A stretch of DNA of 64,000 bases, from contig JAAOMT010000563.1 of NCBI GenBank assembly GCA_016748015.1, positions 335,924 through 399,923 of the forward strand. Reading direction: 5' to 3'. Position 1 is the first letter of the stretch. Each line of letters starts with the position of its first letter. This DNA comes from Geosiphon pyriformis. Lineage: Eukaryota > Glomeromycota > Glomeromycetes > Archaeosporales > Geosiphonaceae. Shown piece after piece: positions 23,778-51,452 of the stretch. The position numbers and the translations under genes were made by a program. The notes below the pieces were generated by a model. It was not told the DNA's origin. It made no database searches and saw only the letters and a program-made list of their open reading frames with translations.

Positions 23778-23920
23778 TATTACTAACAAAAATTTAAAAT
23801 ATTATTTAACATAAAATTATTTTTATAATTCCTCTTATTAATTAGTATATATTATTATTTTAATTTATTACTTATTATCTTATTAAATTATCTGAATTAT
23901 TATTCAATTAATAATTTGAT
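23778..23920 (+). repeat. old LTR A, left part, host of the nested insertion
   Basis: Starts TATTACTAACA and aligns with the first part of 26056-27044. It stops at AATTTGAT (23913-23920) where the half-LINE begins. The LTR resumes at 47253 with the same AATTTGAT. Confidence 0.8.
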
Positions 23921-23949
23921 ATAAAAAAACTCTTTGTTTTCTTAATTTT

Positions 23950-25863: not shown

Positions 25864-27641
25864 TATTACTCATAAAAAAAAAAACAGATATAGAAAAAAT
25901 AATAGACCAATGAGTAAATAGTATGTAGCATGTAAGCACATTGCTCAGCAATATAGAGCAATGATAGAAATCATGGCACATTGCTCAAGAAATCATAGCA
26001 CATTGCTTGGGAATATGAACAATCTCATAAAACATCAATTATGTATATATAGCAGTGTTACCAGTAGAATTTTAGCTATTAATTAGCATGAAATTACTCT
26101 TATAATTCCTATAATTAATTAGTATATTAATATTATTTCAAATTATTATTTATTATTTAATCAATTATTACATATCATGATTCAATTAAATAATCCAATT
26201 AGTATAACAAAAAGTAGGATGATCAAATTACACAATACTCTGAACTTTGTAACATTCAAAAATTCGCCGAAATCTACAAAAATTCACTAAAATTTATAGA
26301 AATTCGCCAAAATTATGAATAGTTCACCCAAATTAATCAATAGTTCAGTGAAATAACTTGTAGTTCATCAAAATGTATCTTTAGTTTGCCAAAATTTGAG
26401 CAAAGAAAAAAAGTGCAAGTTTATAGACTAGTATTACAACAAGTTGTATAAAAGAAAAGCTTTTTTCTTCAAGAAAATATATCTTACTTTAGATTTACCA
26501 CTTAGAACCATTCCTATACACACAAAAAAAAAATATTAAATAATTCGAAAAACCAATTTCTTTAAATATTGCACTTGGAAAATCTCCAAAAACCCAACTA
26601 ACGTTTGGAAATTGATTAGCTACCAATATCAGTAAACTGTTAGTAACTTCAGGCCTGAATAAAAAACGTTTTCCTTGATAAAATCCTATTTCTTTTACAT
26701 TTCTTTTATTTTTCTTTTCTTTTCTTATTACAATCATTAGGGTAGTCTACAGACAAGATTCCTGTAGAAGAGTTGACTTTCACAGCAAAGTAACTACACA
26801 TTTTTTAGTAAGCTTCCAGATAAGCAGTTCTTGGGAAAGAGTTGACATTTACTACAACATAACTACATAAAGTAACTGGCAAGGAATTGGCCATTCTACT
26901 TATAAGCCCAGCAGTTCAAATTATAGGAGATAATTTGAAGATAAATTCAGTTACTGAAGGTTCAACTACTTTTAGAAAACGTGAATTTGCAATCAACAGA
27001 CATTTACAACATTCAAGAAAAGAGACCAAAAATCTCCAGTAACAGTGGTAGTGTTAGAAGTAAAAAGATAAAAATTCTTTAGTTAGAAATTTTTTATCCA
27101 CAAATATTAAATAAATAAATCATTCACTATCCAAATCCACTTTTCACTATCAATACATTATGTTAATAGTAATTGATACCTAACTCTGCTGGAACAATAG
27201 CTCTTGATCATGGCTATTGATAAAATACTAATATGCATATTACCTTGGCTTATTTTTTTATTTTCTTTTATTTCTTTTTTTTTTTGATTTTTACTGTCAT
27301 ATACTAACTGATTAAGGATTAAAGCGCTGAGTAATTGACGTTACAGATAGCCTGGTAAAAGACCCAGAAATAAGGGTAAAATTATATATATATTAATAGA
27401 TAGCTTATCAGAAGGGCACGACTGCCAGAATAAACTGGCTACCAAGCTGAAGACAGAAATTGGGAACACAACTTACCAACCAACTACATTGTCATTGAAT
27501 CTCTGTCTATTATACAAAGAACTCAACTCTAAAATCTTCAGATACAACCAATGTACCAGTATCATCAGCATTGTCAAGATATTGAGCACCAAGTTATAGA
27601 TTTGTTATTTGATTTGAGACTCCAAATAATCATCTGTAATA
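25864..27641 (+). repeat. 5' LTR B of element 2, split by a solo LTR A
   Basis: Without the inserted 989 bp the LTR is 789 bp, shorter than the 3' LTR (892 bp) mainly because the GCACATTGCT array has three units instead of five. It ends CATCTGTAATA, followed by TTTGGTACTTCC, a mutated primer-binding site. Confidence 0.88.
26056..27044 (+). repeat. solo LTR A, intact ends
   Basis: TGTTACCAGTAG… to …CTCCAGTAACA, 989 bp, near full-length match to 2072-3054 in opposite orientation. It lies just after the TATATATAGCAG motif of LTR B, next to the expected transcription start of that LTR. The flanks GCAG and GTGG do not form a clean target duplication. Confidence 0.9.
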
Positions 27642-27703: not shown

Positions 27704-29592
27704 GTGGCAGAATCCAAAGAAATAGGAACAAACCATTTAGGATTTGCAAAATCCTTATTTCAACACTATCACACTCATCTCGAATTAACAAATAATAGTT
27801 GGCCAACCAAATCAGCTTTCAATTGCTATGTCAACAAAAGAATAGTATATCACTTAAGAGGCCAAGGAGATCCAGAATCCACCTTCAACAACTTTTTCAG
27901 TGAATTACTTCAAAGAACTACCCTTCTACAAAATTACTTATTTGTATTCTTAATTATGAAAATAAATAGAAAAATTGAAAAATACACCAAACAGAGATTT
28001 CCTATCACTTTTGCAGACAAAGGCAAAGAAAGGCTACAAACATTAGCAAAAACACCAAAGCAAATCCAACTACCCACTTGGAAGAAACAAAGGTTTGATT
28101 TACTTGCTAATCCATTATATCACTATATACTCGGAAGCACTATCAATATAATAAACACAGCTATAACAGCCACTAAACAGAATTCTATTCCAAAGTAAAC
28201 AAAAGAAGGCAGAGTTATTAGGAACATACGGCAATTATTTTGAGAGATTTAAATCATGATCCCCAACGCCATCAGAAATTTGATTACCACCACCACAACC
28301 AGATTTTGGAGCCATTAGTTCTTGGAAAATAACCAACTCTGAAGAGAAAAAAAGTAGCAATCAGGAAGTTAATAAGCAAAACCTGATTCTAAAACATTCA
28401 GAAATTAAAACTCTAGTTAATCAAACTCCGGAAAATCAGAATAATCAAAACCCCAATGTAATTAATCAGCACTTACTTTCAGTAATCATGATCAATCTAC
28501 CACTAGCTCCACCAAATACCCAACAGCAACAACAGTCACAACTGCTATCTCAACAACAAATTTAGCAGCAACCACAACCCAATTTAGATCCAATGGCATA
28601 TGTACCAATAGCCAAACTTGAAAAATTCACCTGCAAAGAGGACAATGCCCAAGTATGGCTAAATAATGTGGAGAAAGCCATTGCAGCTAATGGATGGAAT
28701 AATGCCAGAGCCATGCAAATCATCCTATATTTTCTCCAGAATACTGCTAATTCATGGTACCAAAGCCTGGTAAACAAATTCCAAGATTTTAATGTATTCA
28801 AAATTGAGTTTTTAAGATATTTCAGCAACAATAATAGCATTAACAAGCTAGTAAACACATTCACTATTATCAAACAAAAAGAAAATAAAGCAGTTACTAT
28901 TTACTTAAGACACTTCCATAGGAATCTGCACCAGATTCAAGCTATCAACACCAATTATTTCACAGTAGCCCAAATTCTAAATCAGTTTATTCATGGATTA
29001 TGCAGTAGCATCTTGCAATGCATATGTCAATTGCATTCTAACAATCTGCAAGCAGCCATCACAAATGCCCAAAATTTTGAAGCTACTGAACTCAAAGTTA
29101 ACCATGTCCAAGCCATTAACTTAGTAATGAATGGATCATCTAAATTGAATTCCAAATTGAAACAATTTAGTAATTCCATCAATCAGAAATTAGAGAGATA
29201 CTTAGCTGACAATCACACAATTTATCAACCACCACAACGATGCAATAATTCTGGAAATGTGAATCATTTCCAAAATCAGTCATGTTCATCATTATCAACC
29301 AATTAACAGTGACAACAAAAAATGTGTGTTTGCCACTATTGTAGTAAACAAAGACACCTATAAATTGATTGCCACCATCATTTAAATAACCAATGATTGA
29401 GAAATCAATATTGAAACCCCAATCACCAGTTTTAAATTCCAAATAACTTACCAAACTTAGAGCCATATCATTAGAATTACATACTTATGACATAACAGCC
29501 ACTTTATCATCTACCAGTATATCAAGTGCCAATTTATCAATCAACAACACCAACAATTTATCAGCTACAGTCACAACCCATTTATTAGCCAC
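27704..29592 (+). pseudogene. gag of element 2, first part (cut at 29592 by element 1)
   Basis: N-terminal part 27704-28198 (AESKEIGTNHLGFAKSLFQ); no in-frame ATG is visible, so the true start is uncertain. The capsid-type domain is at 28593-29306 (MAYVPIAKLEKFTCKEDNAQ, WYQSLVNKFQDFNVFKIEF). It is followed by a CX2CX4HX4C knuckle near 29325-29365 (CHYC, then H, then DC). Frameshifts and stops lie between the parts. Reading resumes at 39655 after element 1, with TSD CCAC on both sides, and leads to protease at 40048. Confidence 0.87.
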
Positions 29593-30435
29593 TGTTACAG
29601 ATGATTATTTGGGGTTTCAAGTTAAATAACAAATCCGTAACTTGGTGCTGGATTGGTATTCTGGTGTTGATATCTAAAGGTTTTGTTGTGGAGTCTTTTG
29701 TATAATGGACAGAGATTCAAGTGTTGTCTTTCCTATAGCCTCTCAGAATTGCAATTTCATCGAATTTCTTTCTCAGCATGGTGGCTGGTAATCTTGGCAG
29801 AGATGTCCTTCTGACAAGTTATCCTTAAATTTTCAATTCCTATACCCTTCCTTTGGGGTCTTTTACCAGATTATTCTTGACATTAATAACTCAGCACTTA
29901 ATTTTTAATCAGTTTAATAAAACTAACAAAATGACAAAACAAAGAAAATAAAAGAAAAAAATAAAGAAATAAATGAAAGCAATTGCAAGTTAGTATTCTG
30001 TCAATAGCCATGATCAAGAGCTATTGTTCTCATATAGTTAAGTATTACTTACTATTAACATAAAGTGTTGATAATGGAGAGTGGATTTAAGATAGTGAAT
30101 AATTATTTATTAATATTTGTGAATGGAAGGTTGCTTAAATCAAATCTAAACTGAGAGATCTGTTTTTTCTACTTCTAATGCTACTGCTATATATACATAA
30201 TTTGGGTTCTATGAAATCACTCACATTCCTAAGTAATATGCTATAATTTCTCAAGCAATGCTCATATTGCTAAGCAATATGCTGTATTTTTTTGACATCG
30301 CTCCACATTGCTAAGTGATGTGCCATGATTTCTGATATTGCTCCACATTGCTAAGCAATGTGCTCACATGCTAACTACTATTTTCCTATTGGTTTTTTAT
30401 TTTCTTATATCTGTTTTCTTTTTCTATGAGTAACA
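29593..30435 (-). repeat. 3' LTR B of element 1
   Basis: 843 bp, TGTTACAGATGATT… to …TATGAGTAACA on the plus strand. Contains four blocks of the GCACATTGCT-type palindromic array (30220-30380), the TATATATACAT motif at about 30190, and the inverted repeat around CAATAGCCATGATCAAG. Confidence 0.95.
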
Positions 30436-30451
30436 TTATTTCCTCTTTTTT
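30436..30451 (-). promoter_or_regulatory. polypurine tract of element 1
   Basis: The minus strand reads AAAAAAGAGGAAATAA directly before the 3' LTR. Its counterpart in element 2 is at 46003-46018. It is the expected plus-strand primer for reverse transcription. Confidence 0.7.
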
Positions 30452-31085
30452 AATATTAAACTCCATCAAAATTTTTGTTTTGAATTAATTCTAATACTTC
30501 TTTTTCAAGTATTGTTTGTTTGACTCTGTTTCTCACATCTTTCACTTGTGTATTGTTCATTCTTCCCCATTGGTTAATGGTTATGGTTTCTATATCAAAG
30601 TGTAACAGTATTTCTGGATAGTTTCGAAATATGTTGTGTAGTCAGTACATTGTTCTAACATGTAGTGTTGAATTTGTTTTCTTTCCGATAAATTCTTCAA
30701 TTTGTTGTATTATGTCTTGGTTGAATATTTTCTTGGATTTGTTGATATACAACTCCTGAATATTCAACTTTCGACTTAATTGGTAGTAACAGTATGATAT
30801 TGGAAGTTGTTTTGTTCACTGCTTCCAATTTTTTTTTGTAAGTTCTTCTGTTGGTACTATAATAGATATTTTTCCAAATGTGTTCTTTACTTTTTCTATT
30901 ATGTTATCTGACTAGTTTTTATTATTCTTTGGTACCCACTAATATGGTGTGTTCTTTGTCTTTCTTTTAGTGTTTTGATAGCAAATTGTTTGGTTGTTAA
31001 CGATAATTTCTATGTCTAACTATTGTTGACTTAAAGCCTGGAACAGTTGTTGAGCTATAATGTGAATATGATCTGGTATTTCTAT
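30450..31085 (-). pseudogene. extra 212-codon ORF downstream of integrase (element 1 copy), function unknown
   Basis: Same length (636 bp, no indel) as the ORF at 45369-46004 in element 2. The conserved start reads IEIPDHIHT here because ATG became ATA. The chain is hydrophilic, rich in Gln/Asn/Lys and Trp, and ends …VLELIQN… just before the polypurine tract. In-frame stops occur at several codons that are probably Trp; three of them coincide with stops in element 2. I see no chromodomain, envelope signal peptide or membrane segment. Integrase ends separately, about 60 bp upstream. See findings. Confidence 0.55.
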
Positions 31086-31144
31086 TTTCTTGATTGCTTT
31101 TGTCATGTATACTGTATCTTTATATACTCTCTGATTGTTTGATT

Positions 31145-32311
31145 TTATGTGTTTGGTTTAATAACTATGGTTAGTTCTAGATCTCGTAGAATCTCATCTG
31201 GTTGAACTAGTATTCTTTGTACTCCTAGTTGTAAAATGTTATTGGTAAATGATGATGCTATCTGGTGATATTGTTTCAGTTGATTACCATGTGCTGCTTT
31301 GGCTAAGATTTTGTTGTTCCATCTTAATTTGTAAGCTCCATTTCCAAGAATTTCTTCAATGTGAAATGGTTCGTCCCATTTGGGGTCAAATTTTCCACTC
31401 CATTGTTTTTCCACTTTAGTATGATGTAGAAATACTTTGTCTCCAATCTTGAATTCAACTGGTTTGTCTGGTAGTTGGTTATTGTGTCTCTCTTTTTGTT
31501 TCTCTTGTGACTTTTGTATGTTGTCAGCTGCTTTTTGTCATCTGTTTTCTAGTATTTCTATTAAGTCATATGTTTTTCTCAACAATGTTTCTTGAAAATT
31601 ATCTTCTGTTATTGGTTTAGCTGAATATGTATTGACTTTTATCTCAACTGGTAATGTTGCTGTTCTACTGTATACTAGTTCAAATAGTGTTGCTTGTGTG
31701 GTATCTTGCTTTATTGTCTGATAAGCAAATAATACTGATGGTATAAACAAATCCCATTCATCTTGGTTTTCTTGACTGATTTTGGTGATTGCTTTACACA
31801 ATGTTCTATTGAATCTTTCAACTAGTCTATTGGTTTGTGGATAATATGGTAATAATAATGGTCTTTTAATTCCAAATCTTTAACTTAATTCTGCCAGTGT
31901 TCTGTTCACAAAGTAAGTTCCTTGATTTGATAATAGTTCTTTTGGATATCTATATCGACAAATCAAATCTTGATGAACAAATTTGGCAATGAATTTTGCA
32001 TCTATTCTTTGAATGGCTTTTGCTTTTGGCCATTTGGTAAGATAGTCCATGGCAACTGTGATATATCTGTTGTCTTTGCTGGTTATTGTTAATGATCCGA
32101 CTAAGTTAATTCCAATACAATTGAATGGTTGTCCCATTTTAATTGGTCTTAATGGTTCACTTGGTCTTGCTTTTCCTCTTCTCTGACAAGCATCACAATT
32201 TTGCATATATTGGATGATGTCTGGATACATTGCTGGCCAATAGTATCTTTTTCTGGTTTTTTCCATGGTTGCTTTTTTGTGAAAATGCCCTGCTATTAGA
32301 TCTGAATGCAT
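31145..32311 (-). pseudogene. integrase of element 1
   Basis: Inserts the cDNA into the genome. N-terminal H2C2 zinc domain (HSDLIAGHFH…, CDACQRRG) at 32311-32180. The catalytic core at about 32130-31890 reads GINLVG and LLSNQGTYF; the two catalytic Asp of the D,D-35-E core are both Asn here (element 2 keeps GIDLVG and LLSDQGTYF). The distal core continues at 31801-31538 (CKAITKISQENQDEWDLF…). The C-terminal barrel lies at 31414-31145 (KFDPKWDEPFHIEEILG). No chromodomain is visible. Stops and frame breaks separate the pieces. Confidence 0.9.
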
Positions 32312-32647
32312 ATTGAATAATATTGTTTCTTTCTTTAATTCTGTGATTACTCTGGTTGGTTGATCTGGATTTCTCTTGTTTTTCTGGTAAAGTATATTTT
32401 GATGGTTGATAAAATATTTGGATTGTTGTTTTATGTCTCTTTGTTCTTTTTGAGATAATTTTTCCTTAAATAATTGAGTCTTTATATAATGTTGTAGTTG
32501 TTAATATTTTTGTATATTCATTTTTTGTTATATTTTTGGGTTGGAATGTTTTTAGATTTGTCTTATTTATGACAATCTGTCAGCATTTCCATTATCTTTT
32601 TCCTTTTTATAATGTACTGTATAGTTAAATGGTGAAAGTTCTATTTT

Positions 32648-33960
32648 CTATCTGGCATGATGATCATCTGCAAATTCTTGTTTCTGAATTAAAGTCAGTT
32701 CCTTGTAATCCATGTATATTTCAAACTTTTGGCTCAAGTATTTTTTCCATTTTATGACTGCCCAATAGATTGCTAAGTATTCTAGTGCTGGAGTTCCATA
32801 GTTTTTTTCAGCTAGACTTAAGCTTCTACTGGCATAAGCTACTGGATGTTCTCTTTCATCTGGTTCTTTCTGCAATAGTACTGCTTCCAATGCTTGACTT
32901 AATGCATCCATAGTGATGATGAATGGTTTGCTGTGGTTTGGATATATCAACACTGGAGCTTGAATAAGCTTTTTTCTCAATGTGTTGAATGCTTTTTGTT
33001 GAGTTTTAGTCCATTTATACTTTATATTCTTAGTTTGTAGCTGGTAAAGTGGCAGAGCTAGTTTGGAAAAGTCCTTGATGAAGTGGTGATAATAGTCTGC
33101 GAATCCCAAAAATGCCTTTAGTTCTGACAAGTTTGTTGGTACTGGAAAGTTCTTTACTATTGCAATCTTATCTGGATCCGTTTTGATACTATCTTTGCTT
33201 ACAACATGTCCCAAAAACTTGAGTTCAGTTTTTTCAAAGAAACACTTTGTTGCATTTAGTTTTAATCCGGCTCTTCTTAGTCTTTCAAACACTTGCTGGA
33301 GGTAATGCAAATGATCATTAAATGTTTTTGAAAATACATTGGTGTTGTCTAAGTATACAACTACTGATTTCCATAGTAGTCCAGTATATATGATTTTCAT
33401 AAGCCGTTGAAATGTTGCTGGAGCATTTATCAAGCCAAATGGCATGACTTCAAATTCAAAATTCCCTTCTCTTGTTGTAAATACAATCTTTTTTTTGTTA
33501 GCTGGATCCATGGCTACTTGCCAGTAGCCACTATTTAGAAAACCATTTGTTTCCTCCAAAAGTGTTGAATAGTTCTTGGATCTTTGGAGTTGGGTAGCTG
33601 TTTCCCTTGGTTACTCCATTTAATTTCTGGTAATCTACACAAAAAGGAATTTTTCTATTCTTCTTCCGGACTAGTACTACTGGTGACAACTATGGACTCA
33701 TTGATAGCTGAATTAGCCCATTGTCAAGCATCTGATTGATTTCTTGATAAATAATCTCATGGCTAGCTGGTGGTACTCTGTATGCTTTTTGTTTAATTGG
33801 CATTGCATTTCTAGTTTTGATCTAATACTGGATGATGTTGGTGTGGCCAAATTCATTTTTGCTAGCAAAGATGTCATTGAAGTTGCTGAGTAATATCTTT
33901 AGTTGTATCTGTTGGAGTGAGTCTAGATTTCCCATGTTTATCTGTTCCAATTGTTTTGAT
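32648..33960 (-). pseudogene. reverse transcriptase and RNase H of element 1
   Basis: Copies the element RNA into DNA. The open part 33559-32648 runs from SGYWQVAMDP through FGLINAPATFQRLM to VVYLDNTNVF, where the YLDD catalytic box has the second Asp changed to Asn. The connection follows (KFLGHVVSKD, KAFLGFADYY), then RNase H (FIITMDALSQALEAVL, HPVAYASRSLS, EIYMDYKELT). Upstream (33560-33960) the same pol frame is broken, with a stop replacing Trp in the SMSPW motif. Order and motifs are standard Ty3/gypsy (Metaviridae-type). Confidence 0.93.
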
Positions 33961-33980
33961 TAGAGCAGATACCATTTACT

Positions 33981-35282
33981 TTATCCATAGATAGTTTGTG
34001 ATGTGATGTCCACATATTTACACAGTTGTGGAAAATCTGGAATGTAATTTGGTGGTTGATCCTCAACTTCAGTGGTTAAATATTCAATGATAGTTCTCTC
34101 TGGTATTTCAATGATGTTTTCAGTTGTGTTGTAGATGGAGATTTTAATATTTTTGGAGCTGTTGGCTGAGATGTAGAGATTGGTGAGTCTAATCTCTTCT
34201 AATTCACAAATGATGGCTTCTGCTTCAAACAATTGAGCTTGATCCTTCACTTTTCTTTTTATGACTAACATATACTGGTCATATGGTAGAATGGAAATTG
34301 CTTGATGGGTTGAGATAATTTCTCCTTTGTCAACAATTTTTTCCTCTGCCATATTGACTGGTATATTTATTCTATCTGTTGATCCAAATCTCTGTATCCC
34401 TCTAGCTGTAATTCTTAATTCCTTTCTGTTTTCCACTAACACTAATTGAGCTATTTTCACCAGAGGTAGAAATATTGTCTGTGCTATCTTTTCATTTGGA
34501 TCTATGACATATGTCTTTTCTGAATTATTTTGTAGCATAGCAATGATATTTCCTACATATTCTGCATCAATTATTTTTTCTCTAATGTTAATTCCCTTTT
34601 TTGCTAAACTATTCTTAGATGCTAGTTGAACCATTGTTGTTGCTGGAATTTCCAGTGCTATTTTCAGATTGATGTAAGTGTGCGAATGTGGTTCCAATTT
34701 GATGAGATCTTTCCCTGAATATCTCAGATCAAACTCTATATTAGTATCATGTATGTGTTTTGGCATAATACCTTCATTATTATCACTGAACCATTTTAGT
34801 TCTTGCTTCTTGGTGAGGTCAGGGAGCACGATATATTGTTTGTAGTTTGAATTAGAGTTTGAATCTGAGTTGGAATCATTGTCATTGTTATTGTCATTTT
34901 GAACAGAGCTGGGACCATTATTTTTGTTATTATTATTGTTGGAGTCTGAATTGGAATTGGAAACTGATTCCGATTCCAATGCACAGCTGTTAATTGGTTC
35001 TTCTTCCTCTGGGATTGTGTAGATTATACGTGGTAATGGATTGTAAATGAGGTCACACTCATTACAATATTGGAAGTCACAGGGAATTAAACAATGGTCA
35101 CATAATTGAGTATTGATTTCTTCCAACCATTGCTCTTGTTCCTCTTTAGTGGGTACTAATTTTTGGTAGTGTTTGTGGAATTGTTCTGGATCTAGTAGAT
35201 TTATGACTGGTTCTGGGTTCCAGTCAAGTTCTATAGATTCAGATGGGTTGTCTTTGATTGTTTTTATTTCTTCTGGTGTCAC
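33981..35282 (-). CDS. zinc-binding module and dUTPase segment of Pol, element 1 (open, 433 codons)
   Basis: The only long intact stretch of this pol. Residues 61-76 hold five Cys (CDHCLIPCDFQYCNEC), a zinc-ribbon-like cluster. 100-150 is an acidic Ser/Asn/Asp linker. 180-305 (DNA 34368-34745) is a dUTPase (dUTP to dUMP and pyrophosphate). Motif 1 is FDLRY (184-188). Motif 2 is SKNSLAKKG (222-230). Motif 3 is IIDAEYVGN (237-245), with Asp239 as the likely catalytic residue. Motif 4 is EKIAQ and motif 5 RGIQRFGSTDR (294-304). The C-terminal 100 residues (NLYISANSSKNIKISIYN…) link to RT. The frame starts at an internal ATG; the real polyprotein starts further upstream. Spacing and motif order leave little doubt about dUTPase; activity is unknown. 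Confidence 0.88.
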   Translation of the reverse strand: MTPEEIKTIKDNPSESIELDWNPEPVINLLDPEQFHKHYQKLVPTKEEQEQWLEEINTQLCDHCLIPCDFQYCNECDLIYNPLPRIIYTIPEEEEPINSCALESESVSNSNSDSNNNNNKNNGPSSVQNDNNNDNDSNSDSNSNSNYKQYIVLPDLTKKQELKWFSDNNEGIMPKHIHDTNIEFDLRYSGKDLIKLEPHSHTYINLKIALEIPATTMVQLASKNSLAKKGINIREKIIDAEYVGNIIAMLQNNSEKTYVIDPNEKIAQTIFLPLVKIAQLVLVENRKELRITARGIQRFGSTDRINIPVNMAEEKIVDKGEIISTHQAISILPYDQYMLVIKRKVKDQAQLFEAEAIICELEEIRLTNLYISANSSKNIKISIYNTTENIIEIPERTIIEYLTTEVEDQPPNYIPDFPQLCKYVDITSQTIYG

Positions 35283-35447
35283 TCCTTCGATTTTGGCAAG
35301 TGCTATTCACCAGATTTTGTCATTGTCGTGTGAACATCCATCCAGATGTTTGACAGCTTATCTTCAGGTGACATCTATGGGCATTTTTTTTCTTATCCAG
35401 TCACTTATGAGAATCATGGTTTGACACAATTTGTTGTACATTTTTCT

Positions 35448-35702
35448 TTATTCAGGAATGTCATTCCACATTCCTTTGTCCAGAAGAGTTTTACCACAAG
35501 CCAAGCATGATTCATTGTCCCATTTCCCTTTTTGTTTTGGATGTCCAAAGCATTCTATGATGTACACGCGGTAATAAAATTTGGTCACTGTTGAGTATTC
35601 CTCATTATTACCACAACACGTACTCATTGACAACAATTTCTTGCCACAATCGACGCATATGAGTTTTGGGTAACAATAGCTTGATTGTGGTATTGTGTAC
35701 AT
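35448..35702 (-). pseudogene. Cys-rich segment between protease and dUTPase, element 1
   Basis: 84 codons with CX2C pairs: ICVDCGKKLL, STCCGN, then ESCLACGKTLLDKGMW. The arrangement suggests a treble-clef or zinc-ribbon domain. Element 2 has the same segment at about 40780-40990 (ICIDCSKKLL, SCLACGETFLDKGMW). It belongs to the same polyprotein as the downstream dUTPase but is separated here by stops. I know no standard gypsy domain at this place. Confidence 0.7.
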
Positions 35703-35949
35703 ATATGTAGAATGAATAGGGATTGGTATGGAATTTTCTTCTTTCTCTTCTTTTCATTCCCAGGTTGTTGATAATTTGTCCTGATCATTATGAGTTTCTC
35801 AGTTTTGGTTAGCATTTCAGGTAAGTTCTTCTCTTTTCTTTTCTTTCCTGTTATTGTTGTCTCACAAAGGTACTGGCAGCAGCTCATTGTGTTCTTCATC
35901 AGCCCAGGACACTTGATAAGCTTTCCAGGTAGGTTTTTCTTTTTTTTCT

Positions 35950-36600
35950 TCAAACTCTATGAGTGGTGCTATCGAATTGGTGGTTGTAAAGTGGCCACAC
36001 ATGGCTGGTACATGTGTGTGTTATCTGTTCTGGCTGATTTGAAGCTCCTGCATATTTCAATCAAGCAATACATTGGTTTTAGATAGCCAATCATTACCAA
36101 TGAGTGCTTGGTATTGGGTGGCTTTCATAACTAATACTTTGATTGGTACAATAATGCCGTTGACTTCTATAAGAAAGTCATCAATCTCACCAATGAGAAT
36201 TTTGGTTGCTCATAATTCTGACACTGGCAGCACAATTAACTTAGTGACCTAATTGATCCATAAATTGCTTTGTAATAATGCTGTCAGTTGATCCACTATC
36301 TAGGATCAGTTTGATGAAATGGCCATTGACTTTGGCATCAGTGTACATAATGGTAATGGGTTTTTTCTCGAATGTGGCTCTACTGAATAATGGTGTTTGT
36401 GACAGTTCCTCAAATTCAAATGAAAATATTGCTACTAGTAATTCATCATTGGTAATGATGGCTAGAGGTATGTTGTTGGTAAGTGATTGTTTTTGGTTGG
36501 TTTTTGGATTATTGGGTGGGACATCTTCTGGGGTAATCAGGAGACTTAAATAGTTCTGGGAATTCGGATTTTGGGCATACCTGGTGCCTGAATTCCATGG
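35950..36600 (-). pseudogene. aspartic protease of element 1
   Basis: Processes Gag-Pol. Minus-strand translation around 36240-36360 gives the segment starting KLILDSGSTDS, with the D-S-G active-site triad intact, followed by KQFMDQL. 36085-36180 aligns with the distal protease of element 2. Frames are interrupted, so no long ORF shows. Confidence 0.82.
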
Positions 36601-36809
36601 TTGAGATCTTGATAGTTGTGCCGTGGAACTGGGATCAGTTGATGGACTACCATCAATGATCTCCAGCTTTGCTGTGTTAATCTTGGTCTTTGAATTCTGT
36701 TTTAAGGTAAGTTTTGTGGTGGTATTTGATGTTATTGGGACAGATAATTTACTTGAGACTGTAGCTGATAATTGGATTGGGACTATGGTTAATAAATTGT
36801 TGCTGGAAG

Positions 36810-38770
36810 CTAATAGACTGGAGGTGAGTATAATTGCTGTGTCATTGGTGTTTGATATATTGGCTGCATCATAGGTAGGTAATTTTGTTGATATAGAGCT
36901 GGATTTGATTGATTACTGACATAATTCTGAGTTTGTAGTTGGTGATCAGAGTTTTGATACTGATTAACTGATTTCTGATCACTTATCTTTTTTCGACATT
37001 CAAATTGCAAATGTTCTTGTCTACCACAATAGTGGCAAATATGTATTTCCTGCTGCCACTGTTGATTGGTCAAGGATGTTGGACACGACTGATTCTGAAA
37101 ACAATCCGTGTTTCTGGAATTATTGTGTTGTTGTGGTGGTTGATATATTGTGTGATTGTCAGCTAAGTATCCTTCCAATTTCTGATTAATTGAATTACTG
37201 AATTGTTTCAATTTGGAATCCAATTCAGATGATCCATTCATGACCAGGTTTACAGCTTGAGCATGATTGGCTTCTAGTTCAGCTACTTCGAAATCTCGTA
37301 CATTGGTAACTGCATCCTGGAGAGTTTGTGGGTGCATTGGGCGTATGCGTTGAAGGATGTTACTGTGCAACTCACGAATAAACTGGTTTAGAATTTGTGG
37401 TGCTGTAAAATAGTCAGCTTGGATTACTTGAATTTGGCGTAGATTCTTGTGAAACCATTCCAAGTAAGTGGTAACTGCTTCAGTTTCCCCTTGTTTGATT
37501 GTGATGAAGGTGTTGGCTAACTTGTTGATGCTATTATTGTTATTAAAATACCTCAAGAATTCAGTTTTGAATTTGTTAAAATTTTGGGGTTGGATGGTAA
37601 GGCTTTGGTACCATGCATTGGTGGTGTCCTAAAGAAAGTAGGAAATTGCTTGCATGATTCTAGCATTGTCTTAGTTATTGGCTGTAATTGTTTTAGCTAT
37701 ATTATTCAGCCAGACTTGGGCATTATCTTCTTCACTGGTGAATTTATTGAGCTTTACGATTGGTGCGTATGTCATTTGTTGTTGTTGTTGTAGTACAGGC
37801 AGCTGATGAATTTGTTGAAGCGGTTGTTGGGGTGGCTGTCATATGGATTTGGCTAGTGGCTGATTAATGATAATTCCAGAAGATAAGTTTTGTTGATTAA
37901 TTAAGTCGGGATTTTAGTCGTTCTGATTTGGCTGTGTTTGAAAATTTGGAGTTTTAATTTCCGGATTTTCTAAATTTAGATTTTGCTAAGTCTGGAAATT
38001 TGGGGGTTTTAATGTTTGGGTTCTTTGGAATTGGGTTCTGGTAAGTAAATTCTTGATTTTCAGATTCTTCTTTCTTTTCTTCTTGTTCTTTTTCCAATTC
38101 CATTACTTCTCAGAGACTCACGGTTCCGAAATCTAGTTGGGGTGGTAGAGATTGAAGTCCTGATAGCATTGGCAATTGGGACTTAAATCCTTCAAAATAC
38201 GTGCTGTATGGTCCTAAAAGATCTTCTTTCTTTTGTTTACTTTGAAATAGAAATTATCCAAAGATTGATGTTGCATGTAATGTGGATGTGCCTATTAATA
38301 TAATGTTGATGATGCTTCCAGATGTATAGTGATATAATGGATTTGTTGGTAATTCAACTTTAGTTTTCTTTCAAGTGGATGGTTGTATTTGTTTTGGTGT
38401 CACTGCTGGTGTTTGTAATTTTCTTTTGCCTTTACTAGCATAAGTGATTGGGTATTTTTGTTGTGTATAATATTCAATTTCTTTATTAATCTCAGTAATG
38501 ATAGATGCAAAATTATAATTTGTTGGTAGACTAGTGTTTTAGATTAATTTGTGGTAAAAAGTTTCTCTTGCTGATTCAATGTTTACTGGTGTTTCTAACA
38601 AATATGCAATTCTTTTGTTGATGTAGAAATTAAAGGCTAATTCCACTAATATATGATTTTGGTTTAATCTTAAGTGTTAACAGTAGTATTGAAATAAGAA
38701 TTTTGCAAATTCTAAATGGTTTGCTCCTATACTTTCTGATTCTGCCACTTTTAAAATGAGTGTAGTTGGT
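36810..38770 (-). pseudogene. gag of element 1
   Basis: The open part 37556-36810 holds the C-terminal half of the capsid domain (RYFNNNNSINKLANTFITIK) and the nucleocapsid knuckle CHYCGRQEHLQFEC (CX2CX4HX4C), then a Gln/Pro/Tyr-rich tail (YQTPMTQQLYSPPVY). 37560-37760 on the minus strand is the N-terminal capsid, and 37800-38770 a Gln/Asn-rich leader and N-terminal domain homologous to 27704-28590, both with stops. The first in-frame codons read VAESES… near 38750; the original start is not preserved. Confidence 0.85.
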
Positions 38771-38792
38771 GCTGGTTCTCTGTAGAATTATA

Positions 38793-38811
38793 CCTCACAG
38801 AGAGCACCAAA
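38793..38811 (-). promoter_or_regulatory. primer-binding site of element 1
   Basis: The minus strand directly after the LTR reads TTTGGTGCTCTCTGTGAGG, with TGG complementary to a tRNA CCA end. The same site is used by family A. Confidence 0.75.
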
Positions 38812-39654
38812 TGTTACAGATAATTATTTGGGGTCTTAAGTCAAATAACAAATCTGTAACTTGATGCTGGGTTGGTATTTTGGTGTTGATATCTGAAGAT
38901 TTTGTTGTGGAGTCTTTTGTATAATGGACAGAGATTCAAGTGTTGTCTTTTTCATAGCCTTCCAGAATTGCAATTCTGTCAAATTTCTTTCTTAGCATGG
39001 TGGCTGGTAATCTTGGCAAAGATGTTCTTCTGGTAAACTATCCTTAAATTCTCAATTCCTATATCCTTCCTTTGGAGTCTTTTACCAGGCTATCCTTAAC
39101 ATCAATAACTCAGCACTTAATTTTTAATCAGTTTAGTAAAATCAACAAAATGACAAAACAAAAAAAATAAAAGAAAAAAATAAATAAATAAATAAAAGCA
39201 ATTACAAGTTAATATCCCATCAATAGCCATGATCAAAAGCTATTGTTCTTATGTGGTTAAGTATCACTTACTATCAACATAAAGTGTTGATAGTGGAGAG
39301 TAGATTTAAGATGGTGAATAATTATTTATTGATATTTGTGAATGGAAGGTTGCTTAGATCAAATCTAAACTGAAAGATCTGTTTTTTCTTATTTTAATGC
39401 TACTGCTATATATACATAATTTGGGTTTTACGAAATCACTCACATTCCCAAGCAATGTGCTATAATTTCTCAAGCAATGCTTATATTGCTAAGTAATGTG
39501 CTATATTTTCTTGATATTACTTCACATTGCTAAGCGATGTGCTGTGATTTCTGACATTGCTCCACATTGCTAAGCAATATGCTCATGTGCTAACTACTAT
39601 TCTCCTATTGGTCTCCTATTTTTCTATATCTGTTTTCTTTTTTTATAAGTAACA
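38812..39654 (-). repeat. 5' LTR B of element 1
   Basis: 843 bp, same length as the 3' LTR at 29593-30435. The terminal GTAACA is followed by the target duplication CCAC. Four array blocks lie at about 39440-39590 and the TATATATACAT motif at about 39410. Confidence 0.95.
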
Positions 39655-40047
39655 CCACAGTCTCAAGTAATCTATCAGCCTCAACAAATTCAAACACCAC
39701 CACAAAACTTATCTCAAAATGGAACCCAAAGGCCGAGATTGACCCAACAAAGCTGGAAATCATCAATGGTAGTTCACCAACTGATTCTCAGTTCTTCTAC
39801 ACAACTAGCAAGATCTTGACAATGGAATTCAAGCACCGAGTATGTCCAAAACCTGAATTTCCAGAACTATTTAAGTCTTCTGGTTATTACAGAAGACCTC
39901 CAACCCAATAATCCAGAGACCAACCAACAACCAACACTTACCAGCAATATTCTACCAGCTACTATTACCGAGAACAAATCACTGGATGCCATCTTCCCAT
40001 TTAAACTCGAAGAACTATCAACCACGCCATTATTTAGTGAAGCTGCT
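39655..40047 (+). pseudogene. element 2 gag-protease junction, resumed after element 1
   Basis: Starts with the CCAC duplication and continues the Gln/Pro-rich gag tail (many CAA/CCA codons, 39660-39800), then a Ser/Thr/Pro-rich spacer leading into protease. No known domain. Confidence 0.7.
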
Positions 40048-40518
40048 TTGGAAAAAAAACCTATTACAATTATGTATACTGATGCCAAAGTTGATGGCCA
40101 TTCCATCAAACTAATCCTAGACAGTAGATTAGCTGGCAGCATTATTATAAAACAACTTATGGATCAATTAGGTCATCGAGTTGATTGCGCTGCCAGCACC
40201 AGGATCATAACTGCCAATGGAGCAACAAAAACTTCCATTGGTGAGATCAACAACTTTCCCATCAAAATCAACAGTATCATGGTCTCAATTAAAGTACTGG
40301 TTATGGAAGCCACCCAATACCAAGCACTTATTGGAAATGATTGGCTATTTAAAACCAACGCGTTGTTTGATTGGAATATGCAGAAGCTTCAAATTAGCCA
40401 GAACAGCCAACACACACACATACCAGCCACGTGTGGCCATTTCAAGACCATTAACTTGACAACCCCACTTATTGAATTCGAGAAAAAGGAGAAAAAACCT
40501 ACCTGGGAAGCCTACTAA
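40048..40518 (+). pseudogene. aspartic protease of element 2
   Basis: 156 open codons. KLILDSRLAGSIIIKQLMDQL corresponds to the active-site loop of element 1 (ILDSGSTDS); the Gly of D-S-G is Arg here, so it would be inactive. The distal part keeps ALIGNDWLFKTNALFDW, a typical retropepsin C-terminal pattern. It continues in frame after a stop at 40516 into a Lys-rich linker and the zinc module. Confidence 0.85.
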
Positions 40519-40764
40519 GTTTCCTGGGCCAACACCAAACACAACAAGCTGCTGCCAGTATCTTCATGAAATGACAACAGCAAAAAAAAGCAGAGTGAAA
40601 AACTTACCTGGAAAGCTGACCAAGTCTGGGAAACCAACAACAACCAGGAAAAACAAATAAATTGAAAATGGAAAAAAGACAAAAAGAGAAAAGGAAAGGA
40701 GAAAGAAGAAGAACCAACAACTGACAGCAACTCCACTTATAATTCTTACACTACATCTCACCAA

Positions 40765-42213
40765 TCCATTTATCACTGCCCAAAACTGATATGCATCGAT
40801 TGCAGCAAGAAATTGTTGTCAATGGGCACTTGTTGTGGTGACAATGAGAAGTACACTTTGGCAACAAAATTCTATTGCCACTCATACATCATTGAACACT
40901 TTGGAAGGCCAAAACAGGTTGGGAAATAGGACAATGAATCATGCTTGGCTTGTGGAGAAACTTTTCTAGACAAAGGAATGTGGAACAACATTCCTGGACA
41001 AAGAAAAACGTGCAATGAATTGTGTCAATACATGATTCTCATAAGCAACTGAGTGAGGAAAAGAATGCTCATAGACACTGTCTGAAAACGAGCTGTCAAA
41101 CATCTGGATGGATGTCCACACAATGATAACAAAATCTGGCAAATGGCACTTGCCAAAATTGAAGGAGTGACACCAGAAGAGATAAAAACAATTAAAAATA
41201 ACCCATCTAAACCTATAGAACTTGACTAAGACCCAGAACCAGTCATAAATCTCCTAGATCTAGAACAATTCCACAAACATTATCAAGAGCTAGCACCTAC
41301 AAAAAAAAAGCAGAAGCAATGCTTGGAAGAAATCAACACTCAACTATGTAACTACTGTTTGATTCCATGTGACTTTCAATATTGTAATGGGTGTAACCTC
41401 ATTTACAATTCACCACTACACATGATCTACACAATCCTAGAGGAAAAAAAACCAATTAGCAATTGTGCATCAGAATCAGAATCAATTTTCAATCCCGATT
41501 TAAACTTTGACAATAATGATGATGAAAATAATGGTTCCAGTTTTACTCAAAATGGCAATGAAAATATCAGCAATTCAGATTCTGATTCAAATCCCAAAAT
41601 ATATATTGTGTTTCCTGATCTATCTAAGGAGCAGGAACTCAAATAGTATAATGATAATAATAAAAATATCATATTAGTATGCACACATAATACTGATGCA
41701 GGATTTGATCTGAGATATCCGGAAAAAGAAGTCATCAAATTGGAACCAAATTTGTGCACATGTATTGATCTCAAAATAGCTCTGGAAATTCCAGCAACAA
41801 TCATGATTCAATTAACATCTAGGAGTAGCCTAGCAAAAAAAGGAATCAACATCAAAGGAGGAATAATTAATGCAGAGTATGTAAGAAATATCATTGCTAT
41901 ACTACAAAATAATTCTGAAAAGACTTATATCATAGAGCCAAATAAAAAGATAGCACAAGCAATATTTCTACCTTTGGTAAAAATAGCTCAATTAGTGTCA
42001 ATGAAAAACAGGGAAGAATTAGGAATTATTGCTAAAGGGATACAGGAATTTGAATTAACAGGTAGAATAGACATACCAGTTAATATGGTAGAAAAAGAAG
42101 TTATTGACAAAGGAAAAATTATCTCAATCTGTCAATCAATTTTCATTTCACCATATGACCAGTATATGTTACTTATAAAAAAAGAAGTAAAAAAATCAGG
42201 CTCAGTTGTTTGA
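40765..42213 (+). pseudogene. zinc module and dUTPase segment of element 2 Pol
   Basis: The zinc module with CX2C pairs is at about 40780-40990, the second Cys cluster (CNYCLIPCDFQYCNGC) at 41347-41395, and an acidic linker at 41430-41600. The dUTPase lies at about 41690-42068: motif 1 AGFDLRY and motif 2 TSRSSLAKKG are intact. Motif 3 reads IINAEYVRN (catalytic Asp to Asn) and motif 5 GIQEFELTGR (Gly and Ser lost). Compared with element 1 the damage is at other residues, and the two copies together keep all five motifs. Several stops occur before 41640. A one-base insertion in the A-run near 42185 shifts the frame against RT. Confidence 0.87.
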
Positions 42214-43900
42214 AGCAGAAGCCACTATTTGTGAATCAGGGAAGATTGGACTCACTAATCTTTACATATCAGCCAAAAGCCCCAAAAACATCAAAATTCC
42301 TATCTACAACACAACTGAAAGTGTCATTGAAATACCAAAGAGAACTATTATTGGATATTTGACCACTGAAGTTGAGGATCAACCACCAAATCACATTCCA
42401 GATTTTCAACAGCTTTGCAGATATGTGGACATTACATCACAAACCATTTATGAACAAAGTAAATGTTATTTGCTTCAACCAGAACAATTGGAACAGATGA
42501 ACATGGGAAATCTAGATCCACTTCAATGGATGCAACTCAAGATGTTACTCAACAATTTCAATGACATCTTTGCTAGCAAAAATGAATTTGGCTGAACCAA
42601 CATTATCTAGCATCAGATCAAGACTGGAGATGCAATGCCAATTAAACAAAGAGCATACAGAGTACCACCAGTTAGCCATGAGATTATTTGTCAAGAAATC
42701 AACCAGATGCTTGACAACAGGCTAATTCAGCTATCAATGAGTCTATGATCATTACCAATAGTACTAGTCCATAAGAAGAATAAAAAAATCCATTTTTGTG
42801 TAGACTACCGAAAATTGAATGGAGTAACAAAAAGTGATAGCTATCCAACTTTAAAGATCCAAGAACTATTTGATGCTTTTGAAAGAAATAAATGGTTCTC
42901 AACACTGGACTTAGATAGTGGTTACTGGCAAGTAACCATAGATCCAGCCGACAAAAAAAAAACAGCATTTACCACAAGAAAAGAAAATTTTGAGTTTGAA
43001 GTCATGCCATTTGGCTTGATGAATGCTTCAGCAACATTCTAACAGCTCATAGAAATTGTTTATACTGGATTACTATGAAAATCAGTAGTTATATACTTGA
43101 ATGATACCAATGTGTTCTCAAAAACATTCAATAATCATTTGCATCATCTTCAACAAGTATTTGAAAAGTTAAGAAAAGCTGGATTGAAACTAAATGCAAC
43201 CAAATGTTTCTTTAGAAAAACTGAACTCAAGTTTTTGGGACATGTGGTGAGCAAAGACAGAATCAAAACAGATCCAAACAAGATTGAAGTAGTTAAGAAC
43301 TTTCCAATACCAGCCAACTTGCCAGAACTAAGAGCATTTTTGGGATTCGCAGGCTACTATTGCCACTTCATTAAGGACTTTTCTAAACTAGCTCAGCCAC
43401 TTTATCATCTACAAACCAAGAATATAAAATATGAATGGACTAAAGTTCAACAAGAAGCATTTGACACATTGAGAAGAAAGCTTATCCAAGCTTCAGTATT
43501 GATGTATCCAGATCACAACAAACCATTCATTATTACTACTGATACATTAGGTCAAGCATTGGGAGCAGTACTATCACAGAAAAAACCTGATAGAAGAAAG
43601 CATTCAGTAGCTTATGCCAGTAGAAGTTTAAGTTCAGCTGAAAAGAACTATGGAACTCCAGTACTGGAACACTTAGCAATCTATTGGGCTGTCATCAAAT
43701 GGAGAGAATACTTAAGCCAAAAGTTTGAAATATATACAGATCACAAAAGATTGACTTCAATTCAGAAACAAAAATTTGCAGACAATCACCATGCCAGATG
43801 GAAAATAGAACTTTTACTATTCAATTATACAGTACATTATAAAAAGAGAAAAGACAATGGAAATACCAACAGATTGTTGTGAATGAAACAAATCTAAAAA
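42206..43900 (+). pseudogene. reverse transcriptase and RNase H of element 2
   Basis: Same frame from 42206 onward. RT motifs: HFCVDYRKLNGVTKSDSYP, WFSTLDLDSGYWQVTIDP (catalytic Asp of motif A present), FGLMNASATF, then VIYLNDTNVFSK, where the first Asp of YLDD is Asn. RNase H at about 43520-43760 keeps IITTDTLGQALGAVL, HSVAYASRSLS and IYTDHKRLTS. Stops at about 42594, 42610, 42748, 43040 and 43075. It is otherwise closely similar to element 1. Confidence 0.92.
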
Positions 43901-44129
43901 CATTTCAACCCAAAAATATAACAAAAGATGAACACACAAAAATACCAACAACTCCAGTATTATATAAATACTCAATTGTTCAAGAAGAAATTATCTCAAA
44001 AAGAACAAAACAACATAAAACAGCAATTAAAATATTTTATCAATCATCAAAATATACTTTACTGGAAAAACAGAAGAAATCCAGACCAACCAACCAGAGT
44101 AATTACAGAATTAAAAAAAGAAACAATAT

Positions 44130-45303
44130 TGTTTAATATGCACTCAGACCCAACAGTAGAATATTTTTATAAAGAAGCAACCATAGAAAGAACCAGAAAA
44201 AGATATTATTGGCCATCAATGTATCCAGATATTATCCAATATGTTCAAAGTTGTGATGCTTGTTAAAAAAAAAGTGGAACAAAACTCAGTGAACCATTAA
44301 GACCAATCAAAGTAAGACAACTATTTGATTGCATTGGAATTGACTTAGTTGGACCATTAACAATCACTAGTAGAGGCAACAAATATATTGCAGTAGCTAT
44401 GAATTATCTTACAAAATGGCCAAAAGCAAAAGTCATTCAAAGAGCAGATGCAGAATTCATTGCCGAATTCATCCATCAAGATTTGATATGTTAACACAGA
44501 TGTCCAAAAGAACTACTATCAGATCAAGGAACTTATTTTGTGAATAAAACATTAATAGAATTAAGTCAGAGATTTGAGATAAAAAGACCATTATCATTAT
44601 CATATCATTTACAAACCAATAAACTAGTTGAAAGATTCAATAGAACATTGTGTGAAACAATTGCCAAAATCAGTCAAAAAAACCAAGATGAATGGAATTT
44701 GTTTATACTATCAGTATTATTTGCTTATTGAACAATGAGACAAGATACTACACAAACAACACTATTTGAATTAGTATATGGTAAAACAACAACATTACCA
44801 GTTGAGATAGAGGTCAACACATATCCAACTGAACTAATAACAGAAGCTAATTTCTAAGAAACATTGTTAAGAAGAACATATGACCTAATAGAAACATTAA
44901 AAAACAGATGATAAAAAGCAGCTGATAACATTTAAAAGTCTCAAGAAAAGCAAAAAAAATGACATGATAACCAATTATCAGATAAACCAGTTGAATTCAA
45001 GATTGGAGACAAAGTACTTTTACATCATACCAAAGCGGAAAAACAATGGAGTAGAAAATTTGACCCCAAATAAAACAGACCATTTTACATAGAAGAAATT
45101 CTTGGAAATAAAGCTTATAAATTAAGATGGGACAACAAAAGCTTAACCAAAGCAGCACATGGTAATCGACTGAAACCATATTACCAAATAGCATTATCAT
45201 CCACCAATAACATTCCACAATTGGGAGTACAACAAATACTAGTTCAACCAAAGAAGATTCCACGAAATCTGGAACCAATCATAATCATTGGACCAAACAT
45301 GTA
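44130..45303 (+). pseudogene. integrase of element 2
   Basis: H2C2 domain at 44138-44266 (RYYWPSMYPDIIQYVQSCDAC, a stop follows). The core has GIDLVGPLTI at 44336 and LLSDQGTYF at 44514, both catalytic Asp kept, and VERFNRTLCE at about 44625 with the likely Glu. The distal part has DEWNLFILSVLFAY. The C-terminal barrel is at about 45000-45200 (KIGDKVLLHHTKAEKQW), ending near 45303. Stops are at several Gln/Trp codons. Together with element 1 it shows a complete D,D-E integrase without a chromodomain. Confidence 0.9.
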
Positions 45304-46018: not shown

Positions 46019-46910
46019 TATTACTCATAAAAAGAAAAACAGATATAGAAAAAATAGTAGACCAATAAGTGAATAGTATGTAGTATGTGAGCACATTGCT
46101 CAGCAATGTAGAGCAATGATAAAAATCACAGCACATTGCTTAGTAATGTGGAGCAATGTCAAAAAACATGGCACATTGCTTAGCAGTGTAGAATGATGTT
46201 AGAAAATTAGGGCACATTGCTTAAAAAATTATAGCACATTGCTCGAGAATGTGAATGATCTCATAGAACATCAATTATGTATATATAGCAGTAGTATTAG
46301 AAGTAGAAAGAGCAGAATCCTTCCATTAGAGACATCTCAGTTTAAATTTGATCTAAGCAACCTTCTATTCACAAATATCAATAAATAATTATTTACTATC
46401 TCAATCCACTCTTTATTATCAACACTTTATGTTGATAGTAACTGAAACTTGACTACACTGAAACAATAGCTCTTGATCATGGCTATTGACGGAATACTAA
46501 CATGTATATTGCCTTGGCTTATTTCTTTATTTTCTTTTATTTTATTTTTTTTTTGATTTTTACTGTCATATACTAACTGATTAAGAATTAAAGTGCTGAA
46601 TAATTGACATCATGGATAGTCTGGTAAAAGACCCAGAAATAAGGGTAAAATTATATATATATTAACGGATAGCTTACCAGAAAGACATGACTGCCAGAAT
46701 AAACTGGCCATCAAGCTGAAGACAGAAATTGAGAACATAACTTACCAACTAACTACATTGTCATTAAATTTCTGTTTATTATACAAAGGACTTAACTCTA
46801 AAACTTTCAGATACAACCAACATACTAGTATCACCAACATTGTCAAGATATTGAGCATCAAGTTATGGATTTGTTATTTGATTTGAGACCCCAAATAATC
46901 ATCTATAACA
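46019..46910 (+). repeat. 3' LTR B of element 2
   Basis: 892 bp, TATTACTCAT… to …ATCTATAACA. Five blocks starting GCACATTGCT at about 46092-46250, a TATATATAGCAG motif at about 46280, then the stem-loop regions at 46395-46435 and 46465-46490. Confidence 0.93.
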
Positions 46911-49965: not shown

Positions 49966-50556
49966 TTATACATCTATATCAATAAATAGAACTTCATTTA
50001 AACCAGAAAAAAAATAATATATTTTGTATTTACCAAAACTAATAGTTAAAGATTCCATAATACCAAGCATATAAACCACTCTATTTAACAACATAAACAC
50101 TATATAACAAGACAACTCTAAAACCACACTATTATTTTTGACTAATCCAGTTTTTTCCATATTCATTCTATGTTTAAACTTAACAAATCATATCTTAGTA
50201 TAATACAATTCTATCACAAATTTCATGTATTTGACAAGAGCCAGAGCAGTTTTTCTCTTTTTATTAAAAACCAAAACAGTCTTAATATATCAATCTCTTA
50301 ACACAAGACTCTTATAAACTGTAGTGTACAGACTTATGTTTGAAGAACACAATAAAAGAGGACATAAAACAGCAGAAGTTAGTAAGCAAGAAAAGTTTGT
50401 TAATAATATCTACTTCTCAACAGTCTCAGCCAAAACATCTCCATGGAGATTAACATTACCAGCACAAGTAAAAACATGATTAGACATTTCTACTTTATCA
50501 CACAGTTAACACAGTACTCCAAAATAATCTTTATTATACAATTTCTTTTTAACTAC
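49966..50556 (-). pseudogene. LINE copy 4 ORF2, zinc domain and C-terminus
   Basis: 49966-50166 reads MEKTGLVKNN… to FFSGLNEVLFIDIDV, aligning with MEKNGLIPHD… to FFSGVSNMVSVHISV at the end of copy 1. 50400-50556 gives LCDKVEMSNHVFTC, the zinc domain (copy 1: CLYCGNVEVSDHVFSC), with one Cys lost. It is interrupted at 50557 by LTR B. Confidence 0.82.
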
Positions 50557-51452
50557 TGTTACAGATGATTATTTGGGGTCTTAAGTCAAATGACAAATTC
50601 GTAACTTGGTGCTTGATTGGTTTTCTGGTGTTGATATCTGAAGGTTTTGGTGTGGAGTTCTTTGTATAATGGACAGAGATTTAGTTGATGGTTTTTTATC
50701 CATAGCTTCCCGAAATCACAGTTTCATCAAATTTCTTTCTTAGCATAGTGGCCAGTAATCCTTTTGGTAAGCTATTCTCAAATCTATGAGTGTTTTACTC
50801 TTGTTTCACAGGTTTTTTACCAGTCCCTATGACGTCTGTAACTCAGTGCTTAATCCTTAATCAATTTAGTAAAACCAAAGAAATAACAAAAGAAATAAAA
50901 AAAATAAAAAAAACTAAAAGAAAATAAAGAAACAAGTAAAAGTAATTGCAAGTTAGTATTTCGTCAATAGCCATGATCAAGAGCTATTGTTCCAGTGTGG
51001 TCAAGTTTCAGTTACTATCAACATGAAGTGTTGATAATAGAGAGTGGATTGAGATAGTAAATAATTATTTATTGATATTTGTAAATGGAAGGTTGCTTAG
51101 ATCAAATTTAAACTGAGATGTCTCTAATGGAAGGATTCTGTTCTTTCTACTTCTAATGCTACTGCTATATATACATAATTGATGTTCTATGAAATCACTC
51201 ACATTTCCGAGTAATGTGCTATGATTTTTTGAGCAATGCTCACATTGCTGAGCAATGTGCCCTAATTTTCTAACATCACTTTATACTGCTGAGCAATATG
51301 CTATGTTTTCTGATATTGCTCTACATTGCTAAGCAATGTGCTGTGATTTCTATCATTGCTCTACATTGCTGAGCAATGTGCTCATATGCTACCTACTATC
51401 CACTTATTGGTTCACTATTTTTCTTATATCTGTTTTCTTTTTATAAGTAACA
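50557..51452 (-). repeat. solo LTR B in LINE copy 4
   Basis: 896 bp, TGTTACAGATGATT… to …TATAAGTAACA. Flanking 4-mers CTAC (50553-50556) and CTGC (51453-51456) are a target duplication with one transition. Five palindromic array blocks lie at 51190-51400. No internal element sequence remains, so it is the product of LTR-LTR recombination. Confidence 0.93.

Follow-up and report, generated by a model that had tools for sequence, protein, structure and literature searches.

The question raised by this locus is what a dUTPase domain is doing inside the polyprotein of a retrotransposon. The stretch of DNA analyzed, referred to as the window, comprises 64,000 nucleotides from the fungus Geosiphon pyriformis (contig JAAOMT010000563.1), and it holds two long terminal repeat (LTR) retrotransposons, element 1 (29593–39654, minus strand) and element 2, an older copy split by element 1 (25864–46910, plus strand), both delimited by self-BLAST and exact termini. 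Both carry a dUTPase domain between the protease and the reverse transcriptase (RT). It is probable that they belong to a Ty3/gypsy lineage whose Pol dUTPase was gained before at least three families split and has been kept by selection, lowering the uracil content of the element's complementary DNA (cDNA).

The dUTPase domain and its place in Pol

In element 1, the domain lies at 34395–34739 (minus strand), within an open reading frame (ORF) at 33981–35282 which matches the PF00692 profile with an E value of 3.5e-15 (56.3 bits, residues 182–296). In element 2, the ORF at 41740–42213 (plus strand) matches the same profile with an E value of 3.6e-12 (46.6 bits), the decayed domain extending over 41635–42072 in tblastn comparison. 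Both scores exceed the cut-off of 22 bits, and at E <= 0.001 the element 1 ORF also finds 40 different PDB sequences, of which the top ones are named dUTP nucleotidohydrolase. Judged by these matches, the presence of the domain in both elements, which an earlier note on this DNA had proposed, is not due to chance. The same note had read five dUTPase motifs in both copies; element 1 shows the motifs as quoted, whereas in element 2 motifs 3 and 5 are altered, with Asn in place of Asp in the former and changes of R to K and S to L in the latter. A stop is also found immediately ahead of the element 2 domain. The motif names and roles used here are those we presume to be standard for dUTPases, and identical residues occur in the host gene and in PDB dUTPases.

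The protease lies upstream and the RT and RNase H lie downstream of the dUTPase in both window copies, in separate broken frames. Another locus of the same genome (L009) has a single unbroken frame of 1307 residues comprising protease (123–212), dUTPase (566–697), RT (931–1090) and RNase H (1179–1283), and because protease to RNase H are carried in one frame, the dUTPase is a part of Pol. The position between protease and RT is thus seen in the window copies and in an unbroken one, as had been claimed.

Assigned by Pfam matches, both elements are of the Ty3/gypsy type, in agreement with the earlier proposal. Element 1 has LTRs with TG...CA ends and a short target-site duplication, and the order of protease, RT, RNase H and integrase is found together with a Ty3-type gag; in the decayed copies of the window, some single matches fall short of the Pfam cut-offs.

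Spread, motif conservation and selection

The genome searched amounts to 124.7 Mb in 406 contigs. It gave two over-cut-off matches to the N-terminal domain of chitin synthase 1, a fungal domain, which 14 control genomes, all prokaryotes as far as named, did not show. When the best 150 of 3181 candidates were scored with PF00692, all 150 were over the cut-off, and the expectation that other genomic copies of the family would carry the domain has thereby been confirmed. A 433-residue segment from the window gave at least 97 matches including itself, each of them spanning from residue 10 or before to residue 432 or beyond, and a segment of a second family, B, gave at least 119 matches from 117 scored candidates. 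These match lists cover dUTPase-bearing copies and, being ranked by score, favor those that are well preserved and complete in length, so that the counts are minimum values. In addition to families A and B, a third family, C, has been seen at three loci (L004, L015 and L019). The dUTPases are 49–59% identical between the three families, and by this comparison the domain is a feature of the whole element lineage, common to all three.

Conservation within the domain is uneven. Of the 33 family A and 19 family B copies, 30 and 18, respectively, retain the Asp of motif 3, while the motif 3 Tyr, the motif 4 Gln and the motif 5 Phe are present in all 52. The four residues are kept jointly in 30 copies of family A and 18 of family B, as well as in element 1, though not in element 2, and they are invariant in an alignment of 10 copies drawn from families A, B and C (A3). 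The most variable of the nine motif residues checked are the Arg and Ser of motif 2, the Arg and Ser of motif 5 and the Asp of motif 1, and several of the nine are kept no better than the mean alignment column (0.83 in family A, 0.93 in family B). In element 1, motif 2 has K and N (K-N-S) where the majority of copies have R and S.

Codon models gave an in-frame omega for the dUTPase of 0.405 in family A (33 copies) and 0.561 in family B (19 copies), with out-of-frame values of 1.461 and 1.237 (A) and 1.364 and 1.199 (B) on the same alignments and trees. This indicates that the domain has been under purifying selection. By the same kind of estimate, the segments before and after the dUTPase are constrained too, with an omega of 0.483 for the preceding segment (31 copies; 1.155 and 1.867 out of frame) and of 0.526 for the following one (32 copies; 1.397 and 1.721 out of frame), the latter having an omega of 0.644 in family B (17 copies; 1.065 and 1.307 out of frame). 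For the RT, an omega of 0.389 was obtained over 35 copies, six of them from family B, this being an in-frame value alone from a fast tree. Duplicate loci and rows of less than 90% coverage or low identity were removed from the codon alignments. The omegas are point estimates obtained with extreme kappa values, from 10.6 up to the bound of 50, and since internal branches account for just 15.7% of the dUTPase tree for family A, they are diluted by decay after insertion.

Origin and role of the domain

On contig C262, the host carries its own dUTPase gene from the same superfamily, with several exons (by eye) and a motif 3 reading GVIDADYRG, and a recent capture from this host might on that account be entertained. 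This gene is 54–63% identical to the four PDB dUTPases grouping with it, yet only 29–33% identical to the element domains, and none that closely resembles the elements has been seen in the host. In an unrooted tree of 18 sequences, some of them partial and with weak deep support, the element dUTPases form one clade with a support of 100 and a stem length of 0.96. With the element clade so long-stemmed and the host gene so distant, the capture would predate the divergence of the three families, and a recent origin from this host can be regarded as extremely improbable; on this phylogenetic evidence the element dUTPase is an old acquisition. Outside this genome, scans starting from short patterns detected two remote matches in viral contigs and one in bacterial genomes (L064), all 30–32% identical. 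A genome search with the PDB dUTPase 2okd, which we take to be that of Candida, returned 150 scored hits, all looking like element copies; the possibility, raised by this search, that the host had lost its own enzyme was ruled out by the multi-exon gene on C262. A motif 3 pattern had two matches in the genome, one on this host gene and the other (C309) within a family B hit. A motif 2 pattern had eight, as against four for a backwards control, none of them on C262, where an exon end splits the motif.

Several observations weigh against a dUTPase kept by selection for its activity. All nine checked motif residues are retained in just 12 of 33 family A and 9 of 19 family B copies, and motif 2 reads R-S-S in most copies rather than R-S-G, all 52 having Ser in place of the Gly. 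R-S-G is found in the host gene and in five PDB dUTPases, while R-S-S also occurs in the remote bacterial match. Two AlphaFold models reached a mean pLDDT (predicted local distance difference test) of only 41.6 and 41.3, and their predicted strands carry no weight. The copies entering the codon models are the best-scoring of longer lists, in addition to the dilution of omega by decay described above, and the host already owns a dUTPase gene, which raises the matter of the need for a second one.

The Ser at the motif 2 Gly position, together with the departure of element 1 from the usual R and S of this motif and the presence of a Cys-rich segment directly upstream, would suit a domain retained not for catalysis but for a role in structure or nucleic-acid binding, such as trimer formation or Gag-Pol assembly. 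A scaffold, however, would need neither the Asp and Tyr of motif 3 nor the Gln and Phe of motifs 4 and 5, which occur together in 48 of the 52 copies, and this explanation is considered unlikely. The stops present in many copies among the matches listed, along with the decay of both window copies, could in turn be taken to mean that the domain is a functionless relic passively carried in Pol. Such a relic is hard to reconcile with an in-frame omega of 0.41 and 0.56 as against 1.2–1.5 out of frame, the family A value being near the 0.39 of the RT, or with motifs kept across families that are about half identical, and it is judged very improbable.

The preferred reading remains that of a Pol dUTPase maintained by selection and lowering uracil in the cDNA. 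The order of the parts would be gag, protease, Cys-rich segment, linker, dUTPase, conserved segment, RT, RNase H and integrase, and the dUTPase may either be freed by the protease or be active within Pol. As a homotrimer, it would hydrolyze dUTP to dUMP near the reverse transcriptase, so that less uracil would enter the cDNA and less cDNA would be lost to uracil repair before integration. Of the earlier suggestion that the element captured the enzyme to keep uracil out of its cDNA, the role is retained here as the most likely one, while the reason attached to it, the loss of cytosines, is not.

Decay of the window copies and the loss of cytosines

Broken frames and altered RT sites suggest that both window copies are dead relics. 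At the YxDD site of the RT, element 1 has YLDN and element 2 has YLND. Over 35 copies (including loci L030–L058), YLDN occurs in 17, YLDD in 15 and YLND in 3, and by eye these are dispersed over the tree. One locus (L049) keeps GACGAC at this site, whose inner CpG turns into GATGAC or GACAAC by a single change. Among the 17 YLDN copies, nine read GACAAC, one change off GACGAC, and eight read GATAAC or GATAAT, needing a second or third change. The idea of YLDN as a real RT variant lineage was dropped, given its scatter over the tree and the CpG in the Asp codons, which explains part of the pattern.

The two LTRs of an element are identical at insertion, and differences between them are thus changes that followed it. 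The LTR pair of element 1 has 89.4% identity without gaps, the differences being 86 transitions and 3 transversions, and no CpG is common to both LTRs. CpG observed/expected ratios are 0.20 and 0.16 in the elements, and most of the C/T differences between the LTRs precede A, T or C, which makes CpG just a part of the decay. Free dUTP is the substrate of the dUTPase, which prevents the incorporation of U in place of T during DNA synthesis and cannot stop the deamination of cytosines in the chromosome. Having arisen after insertion, the LTR changes would not be prevented by the enzyme and say nothing on uracil in the cDNA, and the argument that the dUTPase would matter owing to heavy cytosine loss has been set aside.

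Segments flanking the dUTPase

Between protease and dUTPase, families A, B and C have in common a Cys-rich segment with several CxxC pairs. In element 1 it lies within a conserved stretch at 35055–36038 (minus strand), delimited by tblastn with L009 and L019, in which stops break the frame, and in element 2 a broken stretch at 40393–41499 (plus strand) matches the Cys-rich region of L009 in tblastn. This segment has no Pfam match, including at 35451–35753 of element 1, and for the Cys-rich region of L019 no meaningful PDB match was detected (best E value 0.17). On the other side of the domain, the segment between dUTPase and RT (33984–34364 in element 1, minus strand) belongs to no known family and is conserved across 30 aligned copies (A1); it has no PDB sequence match and no Pfam match over the cut-off, just a weak one to MreC below it. 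A tandem dUTPase origin for this segment gained no support from a profile comparison, in which it aligned in register with the motif 3–4 part of the dUTPase but not significantly (probability 0.3%, P 0.23).

A doubtful proposal is that protease and RT are separated by a three-part module, in which a Cys-rich, probably zinc-binding segment, the dUTPase and a possible second, degenerate dUTPase-like barrel would together form an independent counterpart of the betaretroviral nucleocapsid-dUTPase. In the latter, the zinc-binding nucleocapsid part is fused to dUTPase, according to the accessible text of one report (PMC4531489). Compared with this fusion from another virus family, the Cys-rich segment found here is unclassified, its zinc binding is a guess, and the dUTPase is placed on the side of the protease that faces the RT. 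If true, such a module would tie nucleotide cleaning to the nucleic acid under copying.

Comparison with known dUTPase-bearing elements

Elements of this kind have been described before. In the available text of a study of Postia placenta, dUTPase is reported in several elements, with PosPlaTy3-5 having it between protease and RT, and earlier cases in Phanerochaete and Tuber are cited (PMC2864245). In bdelloid rotifers, every Juno, Vesta and TelKA element has its dUTPase placed between protease and RT, as far as the accessible sections describe them (PMC5408684). The parts available of three further papers mention fungal chromoviruses with dUTPase (PMC2774666), an enrichment of dUTPase domains, among transposon-related families, in Entomophthora muscae (PMC11105155) and dUTPase among the transposon-derived domains of Glomeromycotina (PMC11878562). 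The order of protease, dUTPase and RT, which the earlier note took for a third arrangement, had thus already been published for PosPlaTy3-5 and the rotifer elements, to judge from these excerpts (PMC2864245; PMC5408684). The elements are of a known kind, dUTPase-bearing LTR retrotransposons, and the set of known arrangements is unchanged.

A close likeness, one of description, is to PosPlaTy3-5, also a fungal Gypsy Pol with the dUTPase between protease and RT. Chromodomain elements are the subject of that study in its available text (PMC2864245); the scanned pieces of the window and of L024 gave no Pfam chromodomain match at E <= 0.05, their tails being either decayed or covered in part. Juno, Vesta and TelKA differ in having an animal host, their likeness being again by description, and in Juno a further zinc knuckle follows the dUTPase, where the Cys-rich segment found here stands before it (PMC5408684, accessible sections). 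In Glomeromycotina, transposon-derived proteins combining PF00692 with low-complexity regions are listed in the portion available (PMC11878562), and the window copy has an Asn/Ser-rich linker before the dUTPase. A literature search with limited journal coverage, extending to parts of the papers, found none giving this element anatomy. Few LTR retrotransposons with a dUTPase have been published, and the lineage adds a high-copy, selection-tested case to them; a dUTPase kept through a split into three families despite the host's own enzyme provides a fair test of why retroelements carry it.

Nested elements and other features of the window

Element 1 is nested inside element 2 on the opposite strand, which rules out a side-by-side inverted pair. 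The earlier note had noticed neither this nesting nor the apparently dead state of both copies nor the Cys-rich segment ahead of the dUTPase. The LTRs of element 1, of 843 nucleotides each, lie at 29593–30435 and 38812–39654, flanked by the target-site duplication CCAC at 29589–29592 and 39655–39658. The gag of element 1 (36813–37628, minus strand) has Ty3 capsid-like and Retrotrans_gag matches and, by eye, a CCHC-like knuckle, for which the Pfam knuckle families stay below their cut-offs. The start of its aspartic protease, with DSG, is in a frame at 36244–36912 (minus strand) with matches below the Pfam cut-offs, and the remainder continues in further frames as far as about 36060. The RT, beginning at profile position 76, and the RNase H occupy 32651–33559 (minus strand; Pfam), and the integrase occupies 31148–32500 (minus strand), with H2C2 over the cut-off and the core and a Tf2-1-like SH3 domain below it.

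The LTRs of element 2 are found at 25864–27641, including an insert of about 1 kb, and at 46019–46910, with GCAG and GTAG as flanks. Its gag (28566–29303, plus strand; Pfam matches) lies upstream of the nested element 1, and the protease-to-integrase part picks up again at 39655, with a protease frame at 39820–40515 (plus strand) in which DSR replaces DSG (Pfam match of 40048–40518), RT and RNase H in two frames at 42749–43879 (plus strand; Pfam) and a broken integrase region at 43922–45301 (plus strand), recognized by its frames, a weak core match and tblastn. The insert in the 5' LTR (26053–27044) is 85% identical to the inverted 2072–3057 and represents a separate repeat family. An LTR-like stretch at 50546–51453, possibly a solo LTR, shares 78% identity with the LTR of element 1 and, over part of its length, 88% with the 3' LTR of element 2, and a shorter LTR-like match lies at 58482–58705.

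Elsewhere in the window, remote gag-like matches at 348–1163 and 10610–10858 (32% and 27%) and remote integrase-like matches at 7970–8462 (30–41%) appear to be relics of other elements. A direct repeat of 1.6 kb (16290–17884 and 23909–25505) is 81% identical between its copies, and self-comparison detected a tandem array with a period of about 57 bases at 20567–21073. At 61133–62696, two ORFs resemble, by eye, the N-terminal part of what we take to be a SNF2/STH1-type chromatin remodeller.

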